Both the position numbers and the translations under genes were made by a program. A model generated the notes under the pieces. The model did no database searches and was not told the DNA's origin. It saw nothing but the letters and a program-made list of their open reading frames with translations. Below are positions 1 through 10,634 of a stretch of 10,634 nucleotides of DNA, piece after piece (the stretch's first letter is position 1; each line of letters starts with the position of its first letter). This DNA is from Syntrophomonadaceae bacterium (lineage in GTDB: Bacteria; Bacillota; Syntrophomonadia; Syntrophomonadales; Syntrophomonadaceae): positions 1 through 10,634 of the forward strand of contig JAISDD010000062.1 of NCBI GenBank assembly GCA_031265005.1, given 5' to 3'.

Positions 1-73
1 GTATAACAGTATACGGAAAAACTAAAACTCCGCGTAAAGGCAGCATTGGTATTTCTTTTAATTCACCATACAT
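1..73 (-). CDS. lon: Lon protease, N-terminal fragment (cut by window edge)
   Basis: Not a full gene here: only the first 24 codons lie in the window. The reverse strand reads M-Y-G-E-L-K-E-I-P followed by MLPLRGVLVFPYTVI, which matches the start of the Lon substrate-binding (LAN) domain; B. subtilis LonA has PLLPLRGLLVYP at the same place. Lon is a cytosolic ATP-dependent serine protease that degrades misfolded and some regulatory proteins. The start at 73 is supported by an AGGAGG nine bases upstream; an internal ATG at codon 10 has no such site. Its place after tig-clpP-clpX is the usual Firmicute order, which strengthens a call based on a short sequence. A terminator separates it from clpX, so it probably has its own promoter. 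The AAA+ and protease domains lie outside the window. Confidence 0.88.
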   Translation of the reverse strand, partial: MYGELKEIPMLPLRGVLVFPYTVI

Positions 74-82
74 AGTAACTGT

Positions 83-88
83 CCTCCT
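83..88 (-). promoter_or_regulatory. Shine-Dalgarno site of lon
   Basis: A full AGGAGG on the reverse strand, nine bases before the ATG at 73. It fixes the lon start although almost all of the gene is outside the window. Confidence 0.85.
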
Positions 89-98
89 AAGTGCATTT

Positions 99-127
99 AT
101 TGTACTATATGACACATATCAGCGCAA
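99..127 (-). promoter_or_regulatory. Candidate sigma-A promoter of lon
   Basis: The reverse strand has TTGCGC (122-127), a 17-base spacer and TACAAT (99-104), about 20 bases upstream of the Shine-Dalgarno site. The -10 box matches consensus at 5 of 6 positions but the -35 at only 3 of 6. A TATAAT also occurs further upstream in this AT-rich gap, without a good -35. A promoter is expected here because a terminator closes the clpX transcript upstream. No CIRCE element or CtsR heptad repeat is visible in the gap. Confidence 0.35.
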
Positions 128-248
128 TAAGTTGTTTAGATAAATCGGTTATAAAACTTGCGTTTTATTATATTATAAGCTTTGAATTTGAAAATATTTT
201 TTTATTATTCCCCACCGCGTTCACATACACCAAGAAAAAAATCCCACT

Positions 249-273
249 AAAAAAGGCAGCTGCCACTGCCTTT
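249..273 (-). terminator. Intrinsic terminator downstream of clpX
   Basis: The reverse strand forms an 8-bp perfect stem (AAAGGCAG / CTGCCTTT) with a 6-base loop, ending in a run of six T. It starts about 55 bases after the clpX stop codon and marks the end of the clpX transcript, before lon. Confidence 0.85.
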
Positions 274-328
274 CTTTTCTTCCAATGTTTTTCAAATGCA
301 ATTTTCCGTATTTTCCAGCCTGAAAAAA

Positions 329-1579
329 TCAATTGATTTTTCTGCGCGCTTCCATAGTGACCAGCAGCGGTTTTTCTTTTTTCAGGACCACTTCTTTAGT
401 AATCAGCACTTTGGTAACATCAATGCGCGAGGGAATATCATACATAACTTCCAGCATAATATCTTCCAGTATGGCCCTCAAGCCGCGAGCTCCCGTATTT
501 CTCCTCAAAGCTTCCTCAGAGACAGCAAATAAAGCGTCTTCGGTAAACTCAAGGTCTACTCCATCTAAGCTGAAAAGCTTTTTGTATTGCTTTACCAAAG
601 CGTTCTTAGGCTCGGTCAAAATTTTGACCAGCGCTTCAACATTTAACGTATTCAAAGTTACTACTATCGGAACTCTTCCTACAAATTCCGGAATCAAACC
701 AAATCTCAGCAAGTCCTGCGGCAATACCATGTTCAAAATTTCGCCGATCTTTTTTTCTTCCTTGCCTTGAATCTCAGCTCCAAATCCCATGATCTTTTGT
801 CTGACCCTGCTCTGTATTATTTTGTCAATACCTTCAAAAGCTCCTCCGCAAATAAAAAGAATATTACTGGTATCGATCTGTATAAATTCCTGATGCGGAT
901 GTTTTCTGCCGCCTTGGGGCGGAACGCTGGCTACAGTTCCTTCTAATATTTTTAATAACGCCTGTTGAACTCCTTCGCCGGAAACATCTCTGGTTATACT
1001 CGGATTATCGGTCTTTCTGGCAATTTTATCGATTTCGTCAATATAAACCATGCCTTTTTCCGCTTTTTCAATATCAAAATCCGCGGCTTGAATGAGTTTA
1101 AGAAGGATATTTTCGACGTCTTCCCCCACATAACCGGCTTCAGTCAAAGAAGTAGCGTCAGCAATAGCAAACGGTACATTCAAAATTTTGGCTAAGGTTT
1201 GCGCTAAAAGAGTCTTCCCGCTGCCAGTTGGCCCCAGCATCATTATATTAGATTTTTGAAGCTCTACATCATCTGCTTTCAACCCTACGTTAATCCGTTT
1301 ATAATGATTATAAACCGCCACTGAAAGGGATTGTTTGGCTTTTTCCTGACCGATTACGTAATCGTCCAGTATGCGTTTTATTTCACGCGGTTTCGGTATT
1401 TCCCCCAACTCAAACCCAAAATCATCCGCGATCTCTTCTTCTATAATCTCATTGCATAGTTCAATACATTCGTCACAAATGTAGACCCCCGGTCCAGCAA
1501 CCAATTTTTTTACCTGTTCTTGAGTTTTGCCGCAAAAAGAACATTTAAGCTGTCCTTTTTCATCGCCGTATTTGTGCAT
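329..1579 (-). CDS. clpX: ATP-dependent Clp protease ATP-binding subunit ClpX
   Basis: ClpX is the hexameric AAA+ unfoldase that recognises tagged or regulatory proteins in the cytosol and feeds them to ClpP. The 416-residue length is normal for the family. The N-terminal zinc-binding domain has Cys13, Cys16, Cys35 and Cys38 (CSFC and CDEC). The AAA+ core has Walker A GPTGSGKT at 116-123, the pore loop GYVG at 149-152, Walker B with D181-E182 and the RKH pore loop at 225-227. The sensor-2 region has the NTGARGLR signature. The loop that docks on ClpP reads MGF at 264-266, where IGF or LGF is usual; this is conservative and ClpP docking is still expected. AGAGGTGAG lies just before the start codon. 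The gene follows clpP by 23 bases on the same strand, so the two are very likely co-transcribed, and a terminator follows. The call is secure. Confidence 0.98.
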
Positions 1580-1602
1580 AATCTCACCTCTTTAGCATCA
1601 GA

Positions 1603-2211
1603 CTATTTCTTTTTATTGTTCTTGTTGACCTGTCCCATAACTTCATCAATTATGCCATATTCTTTGGCTTCTTCCGCCGACATATAAAAATCTCTTTCAG
1701 TATCGGATTGTATTTTAGACAATTTTTGTCCGGTCCTTTCAGACAGGATTTTATTGATAGATTCCCTGACTTTCAAAATATGCTTAGCGTGTATTTCAAT
1801 ATCCGTCGCCTGGCCTTGTGTTCCTCCTGACGGCTGATGGATCATAACCTCGGCGTTAGGCAGGGCAAAACGCTTGCCTTTCTGCCCCGCCGCCAGCAGG
1901 AAAGAACCCATACTGGCCGCTAAACCCACGCATATGGTTGATATATCCGATTTCACATGCTGCATAGTGTCATAGATAGCCATACCCGCACTAACCGACC
2001 CGCCGGGACTGTTAATGTATAATGAAATATCTTTATCCGGGTCTTCAGCTTCCAAAAACAACAACTGGGCGATTACCAAATTCGCTACCCCATCGTCAAT
2101 AGCGCTGCCTAAAAAAACAATACGGTCTTTTAATAAACGGGAGTATATATCATAAGATCTTTCTCCGCGATTTGTTTGCTCAACGACCATTGGGACTAAA
2201 TATGACATCAT
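1603..2211 (-). CDS. clpP: ATP-dependent Clp protease proteolytic subunit ClpP
   Basis: ClpP is the tetradecameric cytosolic serine peptidase that works with ClpX (and ClpC-type partners where present). The 202 residues match the family length. The catalytic triad is intact: Ser100 in GLAASMGSF, His125 in MIHQPSGG and Asp174 in TERDF, with the same spacing as in E. coli and B. subtilis ClpP. The handle region with [14 protein letters not shown] is also present. The N-terminus ([20 protein letters not shown]) is typical of Firmicute ClpP. The chosen start is the first of two adjacent ATG codons, nine bases after AAAGGAG; the second ATG is equally possible and would shorten the protein by one residue. 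It lies between tig (56 bases upstream) and clpX (23 bases downstream), all in one direction. Confidence 0.98.
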
Positions 2212-2267
2212 AAGTTTTTGCTCCTTTGCCTGTAATTATCGATATTTTTTACTTGATACCCTATATA

Positions 2268-3647
2268 TTATTCAGAACTCTTCATTTCTGTCTCAACTAA
2301 TGTTTCGCCGGTTTTAACATCCGGCTCCAACGCCCCTTCTTCGCTGGGGATTTCTTCCTCAGTTACTACAGCGTTTTCCACTAAATAATCGATAGCTTTA
2401 TTAATACAGATACTCATCCGAACGTTATCCGTACTGGAAGCCAGTATTTCCTTGGCTGTATCAGCGGGAATATTAGCTTCTCCCGCAATATCATTAACAT
2501 ATTTCTCTAATTCTTCATCATCTGCTTCAAAACCTTTTTCTTCCGCAATCTTTTCCAGCATAAAATCGGTTCGTACATTCAACTCCGCTTCCGGCCAGAC
2601 ATTTTTATAAAACTCTTCTTCCGAGCTGTTGCTGAATTCAAAATACTGCTCTAAAGTAATGCCTTGCAGAGCCATAGATTGCTGTAATTGCTGGAGCATT
2701 TTTTTTGTACGCTCGTCGACCACCGCGTCAGGAAGAATCATTTCGCAATCGTCAACCGCTTTTTTTAGAACTTCGCTTTTAATCATTTCCCGCTTTCTGG
2801 CGGTTAGCTGCTGTTCCGCTTTTTCACGGACATCGGCTCTCATTTCCTCCAGGGTATCGAATTCGCTTACTTCCTGGGCAAACTCATCATTCAATTCTCT
2901 GAGTTGTTTATGTTCGATTTTATTGAGCGTCACTTTAAAAACAGCTTTTTTATCCGCTAATTCTTGGTTATGGTATTTAGGCGGAAAATAAACTTCCAAA
3001 TCTTTCTTTTCGCCTTTGCGCAGCCCTATTAATTGGTCTTCGAACCCCGGTATAAATGAATTGGAGCCCAATACTAAAGTGTAACCATCAGCTTTTCCGC
3101 CCTCAAAAGGCTCATCGTTCACAAAACCTTCAAAATCTATATTCACCTTATCGTTATATTCCGCCGGCTCATCTTCCGCTCTTTCCGCCAAAAGCGCGTA
3201 TCTGCCCTGTATATCGTTCAACGCGTTCTCAATATCTCCCTCCAGTAATTCCAGTTTAGGGATGGTGACATCGATTTCTTCAATTTTGCCCAAAGTAACT
3301 TCCGGTTTGACAGGTACTCTGGCACTGAAACTAAAAGTCTTGTCAATAATATCATCTTCTGGAAAATCAAATTCCGGCTGAGCGATAGGAGTTATATCCA
3401 ATTGGGTCAAGGCTTTTTCATATGCGTCAGGCACAATCACTTCTAAAGCGTCACTGTAAAAAATTTCTTTCCCGTAATGAGCGGTCAGTATCGCCCGGGG
3501 GGCTTTTCCTTTACGAAATCCGGGAACATTCAGTTTTTTTACAATTTTTTTGTAAGCCTGATTCATGCCCTGCTCAACAGCAGTTTCGTCCACCGTTATC
3601 TCTATGTAAGCCTCGCTATTTTCAACCTTCATTAATTTAGCTTCCAT
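2268..3647 (-). CDS. tig: Trigger factor, ribosome-associated chaperone and peptidyl-prolyl isomerase
   Basis: Trigger factor binds ribosomal protein L23 at the tunnel exit and shelters nascent chains. From the chosen start the protein has 459 residues, slightly longer than the usual 430 or so. The N-terminal domain carries the ribosome-docking signature GFRKGKAP at 43-50. An FKBP-type isomerase domain follows at about 155-240, with FEGFVNDEPFEGG and LGSNSFIPGFEDQLIGL. The rest is the helical C-terminal chaperone domain, ending in an acidic tail rich in Glu and Ser. The frame is open ten codons further upstream, to 3677, but AGGAGG lies only six bases before the ATG at 3647, so that start is preferred. 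The gene heads the tig-clpP-clpX cluster. Confidence 0.97.
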   Translation of the reverse strand: MEAKLMKVENSEAYIEITVDETAVEQGMNQAYKKIVKKLNVPGFRKGKAPRAILTAHYGKEIFYSDALEVIVPDAYEKALTQLDITPIAQPEFDFPEDDIIDKTFSFSARVPVKPEVTLGKIEEIDVTIPKLELLEGDIENALNDIQGRYALLAERAEDEPAEYNDKVNIDFEGFVNDEPFEGGKADGYTLVLGSNSFIPGFEDQLIGLRKGEKKDLEVYFPPKYHNQELADKKAVFKVTLNKIEHKQLRELNDEFAQEVSEFDTLEEMRADVREKAEQQLTARKREMIKSEVLKKAVDDCEMILPDAVVDERTKKMLQQLQQSMALQGITLEQYFEFSNSSEEEFYKNVWPEAELNVRTDFMLEKIAEEKGFEADDEELEKYVNDIAGEANIPADTAKEILASSTDNVRMSICINKAIDYLVENAVVTEEEIPSEEGALEPDVKTGETLVETEMKSSE

Positions 3648-3653
3648 GATGAT

Positions 3654-3659
3654 CCTCCT
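3654..3659 (-). promoter_or_regulatory. Shine-Dalgarno site that sets the tig start
   Basis: AGGAGG on the reverse strand, six bases before the ATG at 3647. It lies inside the longer open frame that begins at 3677, so that upstream ATG is unlikely to be used. Confidence 0.85.
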
Positions 3660-3726
3660 AAAAATTAATATTGCCAATCGTTCATTAACTGCCGCCGCGC
3701 CATCCGTAAATTATTAACTTCTACTT

Positions 3727-3756
3727 ATCGTATTCATAAGGACAAACGAAATTCAA
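3727..3756 (-). promoter_or_regulatory. Weak candidate promoter of tig
   Basis: TTGAAT (3751-3756), an 18-base spacer and TACGAT (3727-3732) on the reverse strand, each box matching consensus at 4 of 6 positions. It would give a leader of roughly 75 bases. A promoter is expected between the tRNA terminator and tig, but this is only the best match seen by eye. Confidence 0.28.
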
Positions 3757-3887
3757 ACCAGCGGCAGGCCCTTTAAAAATAAAGCGGCATATTTTTTCGC
3801 TGGTATACCTGTCAGCAAAATACTATCCTCACGCCCAAATCAATACTCTCTGGATTTTTCCCCATATTCTTTAATATTATAAATTAT

Positions 3888-3920
3888 AAAAAAACATAAA
3901 CCCCGGCAAAACGGCCGAGG
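3888..3920 (-). terminator. Intrinsic terminator of the tRNA-Gly transcript
   Basis: The reverse strand forms a 7-bp stem (CCTCGGC / GCCGGGG, with one T-G wobble) and a 6-base loop. It is followed after a few bases by a run of seven T. It begins 12 bases after the CCA end of the tRNA, so the tRNA is probably a single-gene transcript. Confidence 0.8.
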
Positions 3921-3931
3921 TATAAATTCAC

Positions 3932-4006
3932 TGGAGCGGAAGACGAGATTCGAACTCGCGACCCTCGCCTTGGCAAGGCGATGCTCTACCACTGAGCCAC
4001 TTCCGC
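3932..4006 (-). tRNA. tRNA-Gly (anticodon GCC), CCA encoded
   Basis: 75 bases that fold as a full cloverleaf. The acceptor is GCGGAAG / CTTCCGC, with T as discriminator and an encoded CCA. The D arm has stems GCTC / GAGC. The anticodon arm has stems TCGCC / GGCGA around loop TTGCCAA, which gives anticodon GCC and so glycine for GGC/GGU codons. The T arm has stem GCGAG / CTCGT with the TTCGAAT loop. It has its own promoter upstream and terminator downstream. Confidence 0.96.
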
Positions 4007-4029
4007 GCGAGATTGTTCTTACTTTTAGA

Positions 4030-4058
4030 ATGATATTAATTATCTCTATGAAAGTCAA
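4030..4058 (-). promoter_or_regulatory. Sigma-A promoter of tRNA-Gly
   Basis: TTGACT (4053-4058), a 17-base spacer and TATCAT (4030-4035) on the reverse strand; each box matches consensus at 5 of 6 positions. It ends 23 bases before the mature 5' end of the tRNA, leaving a short leader for RNase P to remove. Confidence 0.75.
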
Positions 4059-4195
4059 GTGGTAAAGTGAAATTCTATTAATAAAAATATTAAAATTTTT
4101 CTAAACATAATTTTTTAGAGTTAACAAATCTTGCCAAAAGTATTTGCCATTTTATACCTAATTTAGTATATCCGTTCTCCTAATATTTATTACCG

Positions 4196-5554
4196 TCATT
4201 CGTGCCAATTCATCAAGGAAGATACTTCCTGGGTTTTGAGGTAGCAGCTGCCGGGGGCTATCGCTTTTAACTCCAAAAAAGCGTTACGCGCTCTATCAAT
4301 TTGATTATTTTTATAATATATTTTACCTAAAAAATATAAGCTGTCGTCATAATAATTGGAATCCGGGAACTCGTACAAATACATATTATAATATTTTTCG
4401 GCCGCGTCATAATCCCCGCTCAAATAATTAACACGCGCTAAATAATAAAGAGCTTCCCGGTTTAAATAGTCCGCCGATTTTAAAGCCACTACCGACTGTA
4501 AATTTTCTTTGGCCAAATCCCATTTCCGGTTCCTGTACGCCTGCATCCCCTTATAATACAATGTCTCCTTCTCGGCCCAAGAAATATTATCATACCGCGC
4601 GGCTTCCGTCACTGAAACAGCCGCGGGAACTGTTCTATAAACCGCAGCGGACATCACCTCAAGCGCTTCTTTTGTATCTCTGTCTTCATACGGATAATTC
4701 CCAAACTTAGACTTCCCGTCTTCGTTTTCATCCCCCGCCGCGGTGTCAGCGCTTGACGTCCAGGCGCCTGACGGCTGAAAATTTTCATTCGCAGCTGCGG
4801 CTTCGGCTTTCAAATCAGCGTTACTATTTTCTGTTGCTGCCGGCGGCGCGGTTTTTAACCTTGAATCAACCACGGAAAACTTACCGGTAAAAGAATCTTT
4901 ATATTGAAAAAGCAGCGCAAAGCCTAATAAACAAACGGCTACTACGAGCTTTTTATGATTTTTACGATAAGAAGCATCGGGACTACCCGAAAAATCCTGG
5001 CTTTTCTCCAATATTTCATATTCTGCTTCTTCTGTTAAAACAGGCTCGGCAAAGGTCCCCAAATAATCCATTAACAAAGGATTGGCCCTATCTATCTCCA
5101 AGCCTTTTCTCCAAACTTTGAACGCGTTACTTTCATCGCCGCAAGCCAGATAACTTATCCCTAACAGCTGATAAACCGCGATGATCCCTTCCTTTTCTTC
5201 CAGCAGAGCTTTTAAAATAACCAGCGCTTGCTCATAATTTTTATTCTCGATGTATTCCACGGATAATGTGAACCTTTTCAGCCACGCTTGAAAAGCCGGG
5301 CTGTAAAATTCCGTTAAACGCATATGGGCTTTAACATTGCCCGGGTCCATGTTTAAAGTTTTTTTCCATAATGCTTCCGCTTTATGAAAATCCCCTATGA
5401 CAAATTCACAATGCGCTTCATGATTGAAAAACCTGACGTCTTCAACCTCAGCGGCATCAGTTAATCTTTCCAAAGCCCTGCTAATCTCATGTCCCTTAAT
5501 CAGATCTTTGATACTGCTGATCATACCGATATTTCTTCCCGCAATATTTTCCAT
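4196..5554 (-). CDS. TPR-repeat protein with one central membrane span
   Basis: No named family is recognised with certainty. The 452-residue protein has three parts. Residues 1-175 are helical with TPR-like repeats (for example near 57-70 and 126-160). A single hydrophobic span, KLVVAVCLLGFALLFQY, lies at 202-218 after basic residues (RKNHKK). Then comes an Ala/Asn/Glu/Asp-rich, probably disordered linker at about 235-295. The C-terminal block at 330-435 has clear TPRs of the YbgF/CpoB/BamD kind, with YYLARVNYLSGDYDAAEKYY and YFLGKIYYKNNQIDRA. The positive-inside rule suggests that the first block is cytosolic and the second outside. AAGGAA lies nine bases before the ATG at 5554; a second ATG ten codons in is possible. 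It is divergent from an L,D-transpeptidase, so a cell-envelope scaffolding role is a reasonable inference, not shown. No strong terminator follows it. Confidence 0.85.
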   Translation of the reverse strand: MENIAGRNIGMISSIKDLIKGHEISRALERLTDAAEVEDVRFFNHEAHCEFVIGDFHKAEALWKKTLNMDPGNVKAHMRLTEFYSPAFQAWLKRFTLSVEYIENKNYEQALVILKALLEEKEGIIAVYQLLGISYLACGDESNAFKVWRKGLEIDRANPLLMDYLGTFAEPVLTEEAEYEILEKSQDFSGSPDASYRKNHKKLVVAVCLLGFALLFQYKDSFTGKFSVVDSRLKTAPPAATENSNADLKAEAAAANENFQPSGAWTSSADTAAGDENEDGKSKFGNYPYEDRDTKEALEVMSAAVYRTVPAAVSVTEAARYDNISWAEKETLYYKGMQAYRNRKWDLAKENLQSVVALKSADYLNREALYYLARVNYLSGDYDAAEKYYNMYLYEFPDSNYYDDSLYFLGKIYYKNNQIDRARNAFLELKAIAPGSCYLKTQEVSSLMNWHE

Positions 5555-5638
5555 ATCGCAACATTCCTTCCAATATATGTTATTATTTATTTCTGCGCGG
5601 GGCTCATGATATCCTGCTTATGCTTGGGGATTTTTTCC

Positions 5639-5668
5639 TTGAATTTTTTCGTTGTTTTCTCATATTTT
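5639..5668 (+). promoter_or_regulatory. Weak candidate promoter of the L,D-transpeptidase
   Basis: TTGAAT (5639-5644), an 18-base spacer and TATTTT (5663-5668), both 4 of 6 matches, 29 bases before the preferred ATG at 5698. If real, it would exclude the longer open frame starting at 5620, because that ATG would lie upstream of the transcript. Confidence 0.28.
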
Positions 5669-5697
5669 TTAATAATGCTACAGCGGGGGGTGGTTAC

Positions 5698-6543
5698 ATG
5701 CTTTACAGCAGCAGGTTTTTATATTTGCACGACCCGCCTTTAAGCGGCCCTGACGTAAAATCACTGCAAGAGCGGCTTAAACAGCAAGGTTTTTATAACT
5801 GTACCCCGGATGGAATTTTTGGAAAAAGCACCGCCGAGGCCCTCAGGGAATTTCAAAAAGTACGCCTGTTAACCGTTGACGGGGTGAGCGACCCTTCAGT
5901 ATGGTCTGAATTGGAGTTATTTTCCGGTTACGCGAAAGACCTCCGCGCAGCCGGGAAAGCCTTGCCCCGCATAACTGTCGATATAGATAAAAGAAAACTA
6001 TGTTACGCTTCGGCGGATAATAATAAGACCTATGCCGTCGGAGTAGGAAGAGCGCGCACTCCCAGCCCTCTCGGTCATTGGACTATTATCGAAAAAGCGC
6101 CGGACCCTGGCGGTCCTTTCGGGTCATGCTGGATGCGTTTAAGCGTACCCTGGGGAGGCTATGGCATTCATGGCACCGACAATCCGCAATCGATCGGCAA
6201 AGCTTACAGCCACGGCTGTATTCGCTTACAAAACCCCGACGCTCTCGAACTTTATAATATGACCCCCATAGGTACTCACGCAACTATCATAGGAAAATCT
6301 TACAACGGCAAAGTTTTGGGCAAAGGGGATGCAGGCGCCGCCGTTCGGTATCTTCAGCGTTCTTTAAAAACCCTCGGTTATTATAAATATCATATTGACG
6401 GTAAATTTAACGGCAAAACCGAAAGAGCGGTCAGGGATTTTCAAAAAAATTCCGGCATAAACCCTGATGGCCTGGTAGGAAATCAGACTTACATTGCTTT
6501 ACAGAAAGCTTTAGCTATAAAACGCGGAGAGATCAGGCCTTGA
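5698..6543 (+). CDS. L,D-transpeptidase (YkuD) flanked by two peptidoglycan-binding domains
   Basis: Predicted to make 3-3 peptidoglycan cross-links or otherwise exchange stem-peptide ends with a catalytic cysteine. Residues 17-75 form a PG_binding_1 domain (DVKSLQERLKQQGFY, then DGIFGKSTAEALREFQK). Residues 91-199 form the YkuD domain with His158 in GIHGTD and the active site SHGCIRL at 171-177 (His172, Cys174). A second PG_binding_1 domain occupies 208-272 (DGKFNGKTERAVRDFQK). From this ATG the protein has 281 residues and starts directly with the R-x-L-x-L-x-x-P-x-x-G-x-DV lead-in seen before such domains, so no signal peptide is visible. A G-rich GGGGTGG lies just before the ATG. The frame is open back to 5620 and would add a hydrophobic stretch, but that start has no ribosome site. 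The gene is divergent from the TPR membrane protein and converges on the NusG-II gene. Confidence 0.93.
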   Translation: MLYSSRFLYLHDPPLSGPDVKSLQERLKQQGFYNCTPDGIFGKSTAEALREFQKVRLLTVDGVSDPSVWSELELFSGYAKDLRAAGKALPRITVDIDKRKLCYASADNNKTYAVGVGRARTPSPLGHWTIIEKAPDPGGPFGSCWMRLSVPWGGYGIHGTDNPQSIGKAYSHGCIRLQNPDALELYNMTPIGTHATIIGKSYNGKVLGKGDAGAAVRYLQRSLKTLGYYKYHIDGKFNGKTERAVRDFQKNSGINPDGLVGNQTYIALQKALAIKRGEIRP

Positions 6544-6553
6544 GCGGTAAATG

Positions 6554-6566
6554 CCCGCCCGGCGGG
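6554..6566. repeat. GC-rich inverted repeat between convergent genes
   Basis: CCCGCCCGGCGGG, a 13-base inverted repeat with 6-base arms around one central base, in the 38-base gap between the stop codons of the L,D-transpeptidase and the NusG-II gene. It could form a tight hairpin (5-bp stem, 3-base loop). No T-run follows on either strand, so it is not a classical terminator. It may still slow polymerase from both sides. Confidence 0.5.
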
Positions 6567-6581
6567 TAAAAGGGAATTATA

Positions 6582-6983
6582 TCAGCGGACCAGTACGTCC
6601 ACCTCTTCTTCCCCGGCGGCGTCTTCAATGGAAATTATTATTTTCTGCGGCAAACAAATGATAGGATTATATTTGTGACTGATCCACCCCTGATGAACAC
6701 AAAGTTTATCCGGGCATTGGGCTGACAGCATCCTCGCTTTCCCGCCTTCGATTTCTACTACGTATTCACCGGCCATCCCCGTAAAATACAGTTGTTTTTT
6801 TTCCTGCCCTTCTCCCGCGGGCAGCAGCGTTTCATAAATGATCACGTTTTCCTGCTTGATAATCAGTCTTCTGGGGGGCGAGGACGCCGCGTCCGATATC
6901 ATCATCCTGTTATTAGCCCAGATTAACAGTAAAGAGGCGCTTAAAAGCAGCATCAAAAATACCGGTATCCACTTTTTGTTCAT
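6582..6983 (-). CDS. NusG domain II-containing membrane-anchored protein (EetA-like)
   Basis: 133 residues: an N-terminal signal anchor or uncleaved signal peptide (about 5-23, WIPVFLMLLLSASLLLIWA), then one extracytoplasmic NusG-domain-II-like beta domain. It has the family pattern of Cys90 (CPDKLC), Cys95, the GWI motif and Cys110 (IICLP). This family, despite its name, is not the transcription factor NusG; in Listeria the EetA protein of the extracellular electron transfer locus is of this kind. Its biochemical role is not established; the three cysteines suggest redox or structural disulfide chemistry (inference). The chosen start gives a four-base ATGA overlap with the upstream Gx gene, pointing to translational coupling; an ATG at 6995 would add four residues but has a poorer ribosome site. 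It is the last gene of the ecf operon. Confidence 0.88.
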   Translation of the reverse strand: MNKKWIPVFLMLLLSASLLLIWANNRMMISDAASSPPRRLIIKQENVIIYETLLPAGEGQEKKQLYFTGMAGEYVVEIEGGKARMLSAQCPDKLCVHQGWISHKYNPIICLPQKIIISIEDAAGEEEVDVLVR

Positions 6984-7546
6984 TTTAAATTCCATGTTTT
7001 TTCTTTATATTCACTGACATAAAACAAAAACGACCTTACGCAAAAACCTATGATCATTCCGGTAATGACGCCGGCCAGCGCTAAGACCGGCGCGTAATAA
7101 AATATTTTTGTACTTTTGATTACAACGGCCGCCACCATTATCTGTCCGAAATTATGCCCCAGCGCGCCTATAATACTGACAATAATAATATTGATTTTAA
7201 AACGGCTGCCGTATAAGAGTACGCTCATAAGGCAAAAACTGAGAAATGAGCCGGTCACGCTGTATAAAAAAGCGGAAAAAGAACCGAATACCCAAGCCGT
7301 CATAAAGCATTTCAAAAGCACTAGAGCCAAAGCCTGACGAAAAGTTAAAAGATACATTCCGGCTAAAATCACCAGGTTCGCTAACCCCAGCTTTATCCCC
7401 GGTATGGTAAAACTGAGCGGCAGCAGCCTCTCCAAATAACTCAGCACCATGGACAGCCCGACCAGCATAGCAATAAAAACCATTTTACGGGTACGCTGAT
7501 AAGGATCGTCAGTTGAAAACGCATCCGGTTTACGTACGTTGATCAT
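6980..7546 (-). CDS. Gx transporter family / EetB-like ECF S-component (labelled heptaprenyl diphosphate synthase component I)
   Basis: 188 residues and very hydrophobic, with about five or six membrane spans (roughly 22-42, 53-67, 72-88, 90-112, 118-143, 150-172). Family marks are PGIKLGLANLV at 49-59 and GALGHNFGQ at 128-136. The Pfam family Hpre_diP_synt_I belongs to the clan of ECF substrate-binding (S) subunits, so the prenyl-synthase label is probably misleading. Listeria EetB, of this family, has been reported to be an ECF-type S subunit for flavin export. Here it sits directly behind its own ecfA1-ecfA2-ecfT genes, so it is the obvious S partner. The start at 7546 is chosen because GGAAAGGAA lies eight bases upstream; the frame opens earlier with a GTG at 7600, without a good site. 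It overlaps the next gene by four bases. Confidence 0.9.
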   Translation of the reverse strand: MINVRKPDAFSTDDPYQRTRKMVFIAMLVGLSMVLSYLERLLPLSFTIPGIKLGLANLVILAGMYLLTFRQALALVLLKCFMTAWVFGSFSAFLYSVTGSFLSFCLMSVLLYGSRFKINIIIVSIIGALGHNFGQIMVAAVVIKSTKIFYYAPVLALAGVITGMIIGFCVRSFLFYVSEYKEKTWNLK

Positions 7547-7554
7547 GATAACAT

Positions 7555-7563
7555 TTCCTTTCC
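7555..7563 (-). promoter_or_regulatory. Shine-Dalgarno site that sets the Gx-family start
   Basis: GGAAAGGAA on the reverse strand, eight bases before the ATG at 7546. It lies inside the longer frame that begins with GTG at 7600 and so argues for the shorter protein. Confidence 0.7.
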
Positions 7564-7630
7564 GCTCCAGCAGCCGCCCGTGTACATCGCCATGTCCCAC
7601 AACTTCTATAAAAACTCAGCCGCGTCAGTG

Positions 7631-8431
7631 TTAATAGTAATCAGGCAGCGCTATAATTATGAGCAATACCGCGGACATTAAGGCCAAAGCGGTATAATCA
7701 GCGCGTTTCATAAACATTTTCCGCAACCCGGTCCGTTCCGCCCCGCTTTGATAGCACCGGCACAGCATAGCGGTACTCAGCGTTTCAGAACGCTGCCAGG
7801 CCCGTATGAATAAGGGCGCCAGTAAACTTACCATAGCCTGAACGCGCTGCGTTATATTGCCGCTGTCGATGTAAGCGCCCCGCGCTTTTTGCGCGTTTAA
7901 TATCCTGTAAGATTCCTCCGCCATTATCGGAACAAAACGCATGGAAATCGACATGATCAAAGCCACTTCCTGCGGAGAAACCTTAATGTAACGAAGCGGA
8001 TACAGCAGTTTACTCATACCTTCCATCAGCTGCAAAGGCGAAGTAGTAAACGTAAGCCAGGAAGTGCCGGCTATGAACAAAATAAAAGACAGGAGAACTT
8101 GCGCCCCCTTGTATATCCCTTCTTTTGACAAACTCAGCCACCCCCACTGAACCCATGACGCGCCGGGCGTCATAAAAGCGCACAAGACAGCGGTGAAGGC
8201 GATCATAACAATGAACCCTCTCATACCGCGCAGCAGCATACTAGGCTTGATTTTAGCCGCGGTTACGGCTCCCGCCAGTGTGAGCGCCGCCAAACCATAT
8301 GACAAGATATCGGAAGCGCATATTAAAGCTATCACATAACATACCGCCAGTATTATTTTCACGCGCGGATCAAGCCGGTGCGCGATGGAATCTCCCGGGA
8401 TATACAACCCCATGGTAATGTCCTGCAACAT
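7631..8431 (-). CDS. ecfT: ECF transporter transmembrane (T) subunit EcfT, FmnA-like by context
   Basis: EcfT couples the two ATPases to an S subunit in the membrane. The 266 residues match the family. Hydrophobic segments lie at about 24-60, 70-88, 108-127 and 245-263. The cytosolic coupling region has the two Arg-containing helices that contact the ATPase grooves: AQKARGAYI (Ala183-Arg184-Gly185) and AMLCRCYQ (221-228). The second is usually AMEARGY or AMEARCY, so the common Glu-Ala is Leu-Cys here, while the Arg is kept. The gene lies 33 bases after ecfA2 with AAAGAGAG before the ATG, and 84 bases before the Gx gene. In Listeria the EcfT homologue FmnA serves flavin export; linkage to EetB-like, EetA-like and ApbE genes suggests the same role here. 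Ordinary vitamin uptake with various S subunits is the alternative. Confidence 0.94.
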   Translation of the reverse strand: MLQDITMGLYIPGDSIAHRLDPRVKIILAVCYVIALICASDILSYGLAALTLAGAVTAAKIKPSMLLRGMRGFIVMIAFTAVLCAFMTPGASWVQWGWLSLSKEGIYKGAQVLLSFILFIAGTSWLTFTTSPLQLMEGMSKLLYPLRYIKVSPQEVALIMSISMRFVPIMAEESYRILNAQKARGAYIDSGNITQRVQAMVSLLAPLFIRAWQRSETLSTAMLCRCYQSGAERTGLRKMFMKRADYTALALMSAVLLIIIALPDYY

Positions 8432-8464
8432 ATAAATTCTCTCTTTAACCGCCTTTTTTTACTA

Positions 8465-9340
8465 TCAGGCCCTTTTTTCTTTTCGTTTATTATACAAGTC
8501 CAGTATCTGCGCCGCCGCTTCGTTAACCAGCATAGTTCCTCTATTTACCGGCACCCCCCGCGCTGATAACTCTTGAAATAGTTGGGTTATTACGGGTTTG
8601 GGCAATTCATCATCAGGGGCGCCGGCCAAGATTTTACTTAACTGGCCTTCCCGGTGAATTTTCCCTTCTTTCATCATGATCACCCGGTCGGTCACGGCGC
8701 CCACGTTTTCCAGGTCATGAGTAACAATGACCAAAGCGATTCCCCGCGCCTGCTGATACGCGCGCATCCTCTCCATGATCAGCTGCCCGCCTTGAGGATC
8801 CAGCCCCACAGTAGGTTCATCAAGAAGCAGTATTTTAGGCTGCATAGCTATGATGCCGGCCAAAGAAACCCGGCGCTTTTCCCCTGTTGACAAGCGCTGC
8901 GGCGAATAGTCCTTTATTTTTTGCTCCAATCCCACGAAAAACAAAGCTTCTTCCGTCCGCTCATTGATTTGGGACGCTGTAAGGCCCATATTTTTCGGTC
9001 CAAAAGCAATATCTTCCGCTACCGTTTTATGAAAAAGCTGGTATTCCGGAAACTGAAAAGCTATGCCGATTTGAAAACGAACTTGCCGTATATTTTTCTT
9101 ATCCTGCCAAATGTCTTGGCCTTTAAAATAAATCTGTCCCCGCTCCGGCTTCAGCAAGCCGTTCATATGCTGGAGCAAAGTCGATTTTCCGGAACCGTTG
9201 GAACCGGTAACTATGACGGTTTCTTCAGGGCGAAGCTGAAAAGACACTCCGTCCAGAGCCGCTTTAGCCCAAGGCGTGCCATAACTATATGTATGGTAAA
9301 CATCGTTCAGCCGTAAAATGCTTTCTGTGTCCGGCATCAC
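8465..9340 (-). CDS. ecfA2: ECF transporter ATPase EcfA2
   Basis: One of two ABC ATPases that power the ECF complex on the cytosolic face. The 291 residues include Walker A GSNGSGKST (46-54), a Q-loop at Gln96 (AFQFPEYQLF, the EcfA2-style form), Walker B ILLLDE (170-175) and the switch His208 (VTHD). The ABC signature reads LSTGE (150-154) instead of LSGGQ/LSGGE. The Gly-to-Thr change sits in the motif that contacts ATP in the partner subunit and may weaken one of the two sites. A C-terminal domain typical of EcfA proteins follows. The gene starts three bases after the ecfA1 stop; GTG at 9340 fits best with GGAG eight bases upstream, and the next codon is an ATG. It is translated with ecfA1 and ecfT as one operon. 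Confidence 0.95.
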   Translation of the reverse strand: MMPDTESILRLNDVYHTYSYGTPWAKAALDGVSFQLRPEETVIVTGSNGSGKSTLLQHMNGLLKPERGQIYFKGQDIWQDKKNIRQVRFQIGIAFQFPEYQLFHKTVAEDIAFGPKNMGLTASQINERTEEALFFVGLEQKIKDYSPQRLSTGEKRRVSLAGIIAMQPKILLLDEPTVGLDPQGGQLIMERMRAYQQARGIALVIVTHDLENVGAVTDRVIMMKEGKIHREGQLSKILAGAPDDELPKPVITQLFQELSARGVPVNRGTMLVNEAAAQILDLYNKRKEKRA

Positions 9341-9343
9341 CCG

Positions 9344-10174
9344 CTATTCTCCCGCCAGCATCCGGCTAATAATTTCCGCGCAGTTTTTCACGCCGTACAC
9401 TTCCGCGGGGACCGGACAGCCCGCTTCAGCCAGCGTATACATCAAAGCTTGCAGCGGAGGCGGTTCCAGCCCGTATTCTCTCAGTTTATCAACTTTGCTG
9501 AAAATTTCCGCCGCGCTCCCGTCTAAAACAATGCGCCCTTTATCTAAAACCAAGACCCGGTCGGCCAAAAGAGCCTCGTCCATATGATGCGTGATCATAA
9601 AAATCGTTAAATTGTACTTCCGGCCCGCGCTTAGCAGCACTTGAAGCCATTCTTGCCGTATGACCGGGTCTAACATGGCGGTGGCCTCATCTAAAACTAT
9701 TCCTTGCGGGCGTAACGCTAAAACCTCAGCCAGCACTACTCGCTGCTTCTCTCCTCCGGACAAGGTATGCGCGGATTGCGTACGCAAATCATATATGCCC
9801 GCCATACGCAGCGCTTCATCCGAACGTTTTCTGATCTCTTCGGGCGCAACGCCGATATTGCCCAGCCCGAAAGCAACTTCTTCCTCTACATTAGACCCTA
9901 TCATCTGGTCGTCAGGATTCTGAAATATCAATCCCACCCTTTGGCGTATCAGGTTCGTATACTGCGGGTCGCGGCTGTCCATTCCCTCTATCAGCACCCG
10001 TCCCGAGGAAGGAAGCAGTAAAGCGTTAAGATGCCTAGCCAAGGTCGATTTTCCGGAAGCGTTCGGCCCGATAAGCGCTACAACGCTCCCCGGACTGATA
10101 TGTAAACTGATACCGTTCAGCACCGGAACATTTTCGTCCGGATAAGTGAATACCAGTTCGTCAATCGTAAACAC
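9344..10174 (-). CDS. ecfA1: ECF transporter ATPase EcfA1
   Basis: Partner ATPase of EcfA2 and first gene of the operon. The 276 residues carry Walker A GPNASGKST (36-44), the Q-loop IFQNPDDQMIG (Gln85) typical of EcfA1, a canonical signature LSGGEKQRV (138-146), Walker B ending D162-E163 followed by ATAMLD, and switch His196 (THHMDEA). The C-terminal EcfA domain is at about 230-275. The start codon is GTG at 10174, with AGGAGG ten bases upstream. In many Firmicutes ecfA1-ecfA2-ecfT follows rplQ in the ribosomal protein cluster. Here the trio instead sits beside flavinylation genes, which suggests a dedicated copy. Whether a second set exists elsewhere cannot be seen from this window. Confidence 0.96.
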   Translation of the reverse strand: MFTIDELVFTYPDENVPVLNGISLHISPGSVVALIGPNASGKSTLARHLNALLLPSSGRVLIEGMDSRDPQYTNLIRQRVGLIFQNPDDQMIGSNVEEEVAFGLGNIGVAPEEIRKRSDEALRMAGIYDLRTQSAHTLSGGEKQRVVLAEVLALRPQGIVLDEATAMLDPVIRQEWLQVLLSAGRKYNLTIFMITHHMDEALLADRVLVLDKGRIVLDGSAAEIFSKVDKLREYGLEPPPLQALMYTLAEAGCPVPAEVYGVKNCAEIISRMLAGE

Positions 10175-10193
10175 TCGGCCTGTCCCTCCTGTT

Positions 10194-10209
10194 GTTAGTT
10201 GCTTCTAAC
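10194..10209. promoter_or_regulatory. Inverted repeat at the ecf operon transcription start (candidate operator)
   Basis: GTTAG, six bases, CTAAC. It lies just downstream of the -10 box of the ecf promoter, covering the expected transcription start, where a repressor would block initiation. The arms are only five bases long, so chance is possible. No regulator gene is in the window. Confidence 0.35.
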
Positions 10210-10213
10210 TCAT

Positions 10214-10241
10214 AATATAGCAACGCCTCCCTCTTTGTCAA
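10214..10241 (-). promoter_or_regulatory. Sigma-A promoter of the ecfA1-ecfA2-ecfT-Gx-NusGII operon
   Basis: A consensus TTGACA (10236-10241), a 16-base spacer and TATATT (10214-10219, 5 of 6) on the reverse strand. It lies 39 bases upstream of the ecfA1 GTG, giving a short leader that contains the AGGAGG. Confidence 0.7.
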
Positions 10242-10270
10242 TAATAATCGCCTTTGTGCGATCTTGGAGA

Positions 10271-10299
10271 TTGCATACACCGGCCCCATATTGTACAAT
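10271..10299 (+). promoter_or_regulatory. Candidate promoter of apbE
   Basis: TTGCAT (10271-10276), a 17-base spacer and TACAAT (10294-10299). The -10 is 5 of 6 and the -35 only 3 of 6. It would give a leader of about 95 bases before the apbE ATG. The -10 box lies within a perfect palindrome. A reverse-strand match (TTTACT, 18 bases, TACAAT) also uses this palindrome and could be a second, upstream promoter of the ecf operon. Confidence 0.4.
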
Positions 10300-10302
10300 A
10301 TG
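10287..10302. promoter_or_regulatory. Perfect 16-base palindrome in the divergent promoter region (candidate operator)
   Basis: CATATTGTACAATATG is identical to its own reverse complement. It overlaps the candidate apbE -10 box and lies about 45 bases upstream of the ecf -35 box. This is a suitable place for a dimeric regulator controlling both arms of the module. I do not recognise the site as that of a known regulator. Confidence 0.5.
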
Positions 10303-10339
10303 TATGTAAACATAGTAAACGATACCGTATCTGCACGCG

Positions 10340-10359
10340 GCGCCATCACTGAGCGGCGC
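10340..10359 (+). other. Possible leader hairpin upstream of apbE
   Basis: GCGCC (10340-10344) can pair with GGCGC (10355-10359) across a 10-base loop, followed by four T. The second arm region can also pair with CGCCG (10377-10381), just before the ribosome site, so two mutually exclusive folds are possible. The stems are short, the T-run is weak, and the pattern is not an FMN riboswitch. Low confidence as a regulatory element. Confidence 0.25.
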
Positions 10360-10402
10360 TTTTGCGTTAAAACAACCGCCGTTACGGGATAAGGAATATT
10401 TC

Positions 10403-10634
10403 ATGACGTTTCATAAATTTTTATGTTTTTTTACCATAGGATTAGCTTTATTCGTTAGCGGCTGCGGCGGTAATGATACTTCTTCTGAAAAAGAAGAACT
10501 TCATACCTACAGGCAAAGTGGATTATTAGGCACTGCCGTCACGATCTCGCTTTACGGCGAAGAAGCCGGGGCTTTGGCTCAGGAATGTTTTGACGCTATC
10601 GAAGATATCGACCGGCGCATGTCGGCCAGCCGCC
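10403..10634 (+). CDS. apbE: FAD:protein FMN transferase ApbE, lipoprotein, N-terminal fragment (cut by window edge)
   Basis: ApbE enzymes covalently attach FMN from FAD to threonine residues of target proteins outside the cytosol. Only the first 77 codons of an expected 330-350 are present. A lipoprotein signal peptide (basic MTFHK, hydrophobic core, lipobox VSGC with lipidated Cys21) puts it on the outer face of the membrane. After a short polar linker comes the ApbE start pattern: LLGTAVTISLYG near residue 42, then FDAIEDIDRRMSASR, ending just before the expected serine-rich motif. AAGGAA lies seven bases before the ATG. It is divergent from the ecf-Gx-NusGII operon, matching the Listeria pairing of FmnB (ApbE type) with EetA and EetB. 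The catalytic residues lie outside the window, so activity cannot be judged. Confidence 0.9.
   Translation, partial: MTFHKFLCFFTIGLALFVSGCGGNDTSSEKEELHTYRQSGLLGTAVTISLYGEEAGALAQECFDAIEDIDRRMSASR

Follow-up and report, generated by a model that had tools for sequence, protein, structure and literature searches.

The 10,634-nt window analysed here (contig JAISDD010000062.1 of assembly GCA_031265005.1, positions 1 to 10,634) is the entire contig C55 of a Syntrophomonadaceae genome (G000; 1.63 Mb, 276 contigs, 77% complete), and its right-hand part carries a set of energy-coupling factor (ECF) transporter genes around an EetB-family S-like subunit (Gx) that probably serves to export flavin. An earlier reading of the letters alone (hereafter the sequence-only reading) had claimed an ecfA1-ecfA2-ecfT-Gx/EetB-NusG-II operon at this place, and its composition is confirmed by five tightly spaced minus-strand open reading frames (ORFs) that match Pfam families. 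From 10174 down to 6582, these are the ATPase EcfA1 (9344..10174; ABC_tran, 3.7e-29), the ATPase EcfA2 (8465..9340; ABC_tran, 8.6e-32), the transmembrane coupling subunit EcfT (7631..8431; PF02361, CbiQ/EcfT, 1.5e-41), Gx itself, proposed as the subunit that binds flavin adenine dinucleotide (FAD) (6980..7600; PF07456, 6.7e-39), and the EetA-like protein NusG_II (6582..6995; PF07009, 1.6e-24). The listed ORFs are separated, in that order, by 3, 33 and 30 nt, and the last two overlap by 16 nt. Both ATPases fall below the cut-offs of the dedicated NCBIfam models (ECF_ATPase_1, 306 bits against 315 for EcfA1; ECF_ATPase_2, 301 bits against 330 for EcfA2), and the nearest solved chains to EcfA1 are the EcfA1 subunits of 9kym and 4huq. 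The Gx match scores 133.7 bits against a cut-off of 30, and the ATG at 7546 is probably its true start since the database copy has 188 amino acids. A Gx of 64% identity is present on a longer public contig (P0004, whose longest contig measures 16.6 kb). NusG_II, which appears membrane-anchored by eye, gave six matches in a protein search and has 4esn (3.4e-10), 4obi and Lin0431 (2kpp, 3ld7) as its nearest solved structures. It bears cysteines arranged as Cx4C...CxP; across the compared loci, Cx4C is kept in 28 of 29 NusG_II proteins and the third cysteine (CxP) in all 29, and a redox or metal role of these residues is possible.

What kind of protein Gx may be is best seen from its model, which adopts the ECF-S fold and is closest to RibU in structure comparison. 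Each of the 19 structural matches of highest Z score is an ECF transporter S subunit, including 4m58, which is titled a transition metal transporter and which we take to be the S subunit of such a complex. A sequence search of the PDB with the Gx profile retrieved RibU alone (E 0.35).

On the plus strand, 228 nt away from EcfA1, starts a divergent gene (10403..10634, ORF 10403-10633) that is cut by the contig end after 77 codons, too few for a full catalytic domain, and that begins with the lipobox VSGC. The sequence-only reading had called it a lipoprotein ApbE, and the call is borne out for this N-terminal fragment by a hidden Markov model (HMM) of the ApbE proteins of relatives. As the fragment is too short, no Pfam or NCBIfam model matched it. 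The HMM, built from 17 of 18 loci (L055 was dropped, no ORF having been picked there), gives it 21.0 bits, with the runner-up at 9.2 among 1093 N-termini including the fragment, and its mature part alone scores 13.1 bits versus at most 5.5 in 2000 shuffles. NusG_II and the ApbE fragment both adjoin the ECF-Gx set. Gx and ApbE also go together at the level of the family, where 14 of 18 genomes with PF07456 have a Pfam ApbE match versus 1 of 36 genomes without PF07456.

The closest characterized counterpart is the EetB-FmnA-EcfA-EcfA'/FmnB system of Listeria monocytogenes, which shares with this locus an EetB-family S subunit of ECF-S fold, an ECF-T protein, two ATPases, EetA/NusG_II and an ApbE-type transferase. 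According to PMC9973259, flavinylation in Listeria depends on EetB, FmnA and EcfA/EcfA', EetB pulls down FAD and does not substitute for RibU in uptake, and deletion of eetA is described as without a phenotype in extracellular electron transfer (EET). Flavin export by EetB-ECF complexes and the clustering of eetB with ECF genes or with apbE are previously published (Rivera-Lugo 2023, PMC9973259). The text and Fig. 2B legend of that study describe eetB together with ECF-T and ECF-A/A', the types of gene found here, in what often looks like an operon. The study also counts, among 4,214 eetB genomes, ECF-T with eetB in 291, ECF-A/A' in 796, apbE in 2,169 and eetA in 3,328. By analogy with these systems, we infer that the window encodes a complete ECF transporter of the EetB kind that exports FAD and feeds the adjacent ApbE for lipoprotein flavinylation, a reading to which we assign a probability of roughly 0.8. 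Gx would bind FAD in the membrane, EcfT would couple it to the ATPases EcfA1 and EcfA2, and FAD would be driven outward by the hydrolysis of ATP. The neighbouring lipoprotein ApbE would then use the exported FAD to place flavin mononucleotide (FMN) covalently on a Ser/Thr of secreted lipoproteins; a part for NusG_II in these steps is conceivable. The locus differs from that of Listeria in that the latter shares EcfA/EcfA' with an importer and uses the EcfT-like FmnA, whereas here a complete EcfA1-A2-T set lies beside Gx and a second one lies elsewhere.

One observation weighs against this reading. The only match in a search of genome contigs was contig JAISWS010000213.1 of a same-genus sister (isolate Nc350_bin141), where the gene order is kept until the contig stops, immediately upstream of EcfT (identities of 70% for NusG_II, 89% for Gx and 83% for EcfT), and ApbE was not found in that sister genome (93% complete), unless the gene lies in the gap where the contig ends.

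The sequence-only reading had proposed to look for a second ecfA1-ecfA2-ecfT set near rplQ, and one is found in this genome on contig C37, where rpoA and rplQ are followed by two ECF-type ATPases and then EcfT; the sister has orthologues at the same place. The exporter-linked set is therefore an additional one, and the sequence-only claim that the exporter is dedicated and has a pair of ATPases to itself becomes plausible, vitamin uptake being presumably left to the rplQ-linked set. A third CbiQ/EcfT gene in the genome is followed by one ATPase gene, and its counterpart in the sister, accompanied by CbiM and a CbiO-like ATPase, is a cobalt-type set. Trees were built for Gx and EcfT, leaving EcfA1 and EcfA2 aside, the EcfT tree comprising the 31 of 63 CbiQ matches that have a locus and showing long branches. 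A recent copying of the exporter set from the rplQ-linked one is rejected on EcfT by the approximately unbiased (AU) test (p 0.010), as is a single clade of the window's EcfT with the other Gx-linked EcfT (p 0.022). The window's EcfT instead groups (93/87) with rows of two other families in the phylum, which by eye have a TruA-like gene downstream; in the Gx tree, the window lies with L030 on a long branch whose support (84/85) is not solid. Since its EcfT falls outside both the rplQ-linked and the other Gx-linked proteins, these phylogenies suggest that the exporter was assembled separately, and more than once.

An exporter of this kind calls for proteins to be flavinylated, and candidate acceptors are present in the genome, which answers the concern of the sequence-only reading that targets might be missing altogether. 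The first is a rhodanese-DUF2271 lipoprotein with an SGAT motif on contig C170 (L029:1621-2652), a contig assigned to the genus by its CbiQ, CbiO-like ATPase and downstream kinase-like ORF (78%, 85% and 87% identical to the sister, respectively); the rhodanese-DUF2271 gene was not found in the sister. Flavinylation of DUF2271 proteins by ApbE has been shown (PMC8238504), and the SGAT in the DUF2271 domain is common to those proteins and ours, which differs by its rhodanese fusion. Among the best 120 of 564 DUF2271 homologues, rhodanese-DUF2271 fusions are the top seven, that of this genome included, and either domain order exists among these relatives, the rhodanese being C-terminal in two of the seven; a literature search for rhodanese and DUF2271 together gave no match. 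In an alignment of 16 of the 120 homologues listed (564 found) plus the protein of L043, the [S/T]GA[S/T] motif occurs in 12 of 17 sequences, with our SGAT among them, and AT is kept in all 17. L043, from a genome of the same family, has its DUF2271 gene next to ApbE, NusG_II, Gx and an EcfT-like gene.

The second candidate is a lipoprotein cut by the end of contig C7, where it lies behind FtrD-like, two FtsX and ABC ATPase genes. The cut falls ahead of the attachment motif, and the piece by itself matches no Pfam family. A closer query nevertheless brought it up as a single-domain orthologue (1.1e-54) of FMN_bind lipoproteins of the sister. With the FMN_bind model PF04205, no match was obtained at E 0.001 in the 77%-complete genome, and the sister yielded two proteins, both small, single-domain and lipoprotein-like, one of which clusters with FTR1, P19, FtrD-like, two FtsX and ATPase genes. 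Clusters for iron assimilation that contain P19 and FMN-binding proteins have been described (PMC8238504), and the sister shares with them FTR1, P19, FtrD-like, two FtsX, the ABC ATPase and the FMN_bind lipoprotein. In our genome, a short contig carries FtrD-like, the two FtsX genes, the ATPase and the first part of the FMN_bind gene; a difference from the described clusters is that the exporter and ApbE are encoded elsewhere. The likeliest acceptors of ApbE would thus be this FMN_bind lipoprotein of the FtrD-like/FtsX/ABC iron-uptake cluster and the rhodanese-DUF2271 lipoprotein.

How far such exporters are tied to ApbE can be judged from 33 Gx loci, those of the window and the sister included, which were classed by the genes lying at most 5 kb from Gx. 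ApbE is present in 20 (among them L032 and L033, both counted as ApbE-linked with ECF sets partly more than 5 kb away), a full ECF set is found without ApbE in 8, and 3 have neither; a Gx fragment on G067:C9 that is interrupted by two stops was left out of these counts. A class-level scan of 51 genomes of at least 85% completeness returned only genomes of the same order, all previously found. The eight ApbE-less full ECF-Gx-NusG_II loci (L037, L038, L040 and L081-L085) form one EcfT clade (100/100), and together with one of the loci that have neither they form one Gx clade (95/91). Five of them adjoin a FAD_binding_2 protein without an FMN_bind match (four are whole and by eye begin like lipoproteins, one is cut by the contig start), and none does among the 20 ApbE-linked loci, or 1 of 20 if one counts a weak match at L086, a 194-residue ORF with FAD_binding_2 over 35 residues only and no lipoprotein start. 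Because the loci are related, Fisher p-values on such counts overstate their independence. A NapC/NirT-type cytochrome c occurs in two of the eight, and no reductase is in view in three (L038, on a short contig, L084 and L085). Statements that ApbE or a reductase is not nearby are weaker for the one-sided short loci (L038, L082, L083 and L084 on the ApbE-less side; L034, L036, L043, L050, L087, L089 and L090 on the ApbE-linked side) because their flanks are short. At the scale of genomes, G038 (one contig, 99% complete) has the module and neither ApbE nor an FMN_bind match, G065 (99% complete) has the module without ApbE, and G006, G011, G063, G066 and G067 carry ApbE elsewhere besides the module.

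Since both alignments preserve the signatures KLGLAN and HxxGQ, the same cargo is plausible for the ApbE-less Gx proteins; of the 120 Gx homologues listed (954 found), 40 were aligned. These neighbourhoods suggest, as a lead and not a result, that ECF export of FAD serves non-covalent loading too. Tentatively, and at rather less than even odds, EetB-type ECF complexes might be general FAD exporters, the ApbE-less clade supplying lipid-anchored flavin reductases that are loaded non-covalently and the independently assembled exporter of the window feeding ApbE, with a flavinylated rhodanese and iron-uptake lipoproteins among the targets. The Bfe/FccA pairing of Shewanella is a suggested counterpart, and a literature search on Bfe gave no specific result. 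Our literature search, which covered passages of PMC9973259, found no claim of ECF FAD export for non-covalently loaded enzymes.

This comparison also bears on an alternative for the window itself, namely that the exporter chiefly supplies FAD to secreted enzymes that hold it non-covalently, ApbE being a second user. The FAD_binding_2 neighbours of the ApbE-less loci speak for it, but the Gx and EcfT of the window lie outside the ApbE-less clade, ApbE adjoins the exporter operon here, and a Pfam scan confined to proteins of the window showed no FAD_binding_2 protein, so that we regard this division of labour as unlikely. Similarly improbable is a Listeria-type EET module with its PplA-like acceptor, Ndh2 and quinone genes beyond the contig, as the sequence-only reading had envisaged. 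The combination of EetA-like, EetB-like, EcfT and ApbE genes does recall the EET cluster of Listeria, but no EET genes are in view here, and the setting is left unsupported by the PF04205 searches reported above, with their null result in this 77%-complete genome, in which no search was aimed at Ndh2 or quinone genes, and, in the sister, two small single-domain proteins of which one lies in an iron-uptake cluster.

An importer, whether a second uptake system for riboflavin/FAD or one for another vitamin, is a still poorer explanation. It would agree with the resemblance of the modelled Gx to RibU and with the description of ECF transporters as otherwise importers (introduction of PMC9973259), but it is at odds with the separate rplQ-linked set, with the linkage of Gx to ApbE and NusG_II, and with the failure of Listeria EetB to replace RibU. 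Finally, we reject as highly improbable that Gx is component I of a heptaprenyl diphosphate synthase, as its Pfam and JGI names say and as a polyprenyl synthetase gene next to Gx in the distant relative L031 (L031:7793-8794, PF00348, 1.2e-64) would fit, given its modelled ECF-S fold, its place in a full ECF operon and the lack of a prenyl synthase partner domain in a Pfam scan limited to proteins of the window. That neighbour in L031 may be the source of the old Pfam name.

Compared with the published kind of system, export of FAD for an adjacent ApbE as proposed here adds separate pump genes, likely targets and ApbE-less cousins. In PMC9973259, both the direction and the dedication of an ECF exporter rest on one organism. 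A whole exporter in one operon, with a second ECF set linked to rplQ, offers a clean unit for reconstitution, in which the cause of outward transport by an ECF complex could be studied. If the proposal for the ApbE-less relatives is true, these exporters would have a broader task than covalent flavinylation, namely to supply secreted flavoenzymes generally with their cofactor.

Several smaller features complete the picture. In the divergent intergenic region (10175..10402), no riboswitch or other Rfam family was found at gathering score, and a promoter-like TTGACA-16-TATATT lies at 10241..10214 on the minus strand. Such sites are no commoner than chance between 6400 and 10634 (5 seen versus 6.1 expected), so that only its position speaks for it. 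In other genomes, ApbE and FMN_bind clusters are accompanied by a different ECF set at L149 (G066:C57), L150 (G067:C9), L151/L085 (G063:C14) and L033 (G021:C1), with a PF09819 S subunit in L149 and L033 and a MobB gene in L149, L150 and L085. Exported-looking proteins at these loci match Oxidored_molyb, clearly in L151 and near the cut-off elsewhere, that of L149 being fused to FMN_bind. This second type of ECF set might move molybdenum or a pterin cofactor for exported molybdo-flavo proteins. The remainder of the window (329-6543) is of ordinary housekeeping character and mostly preserved in the sister; it encodes ClpX, ClpP, trigger factor, tRNA-Gly, an L,D-transpeptidase and a protein with tetratricopeptide repeats (TPR).

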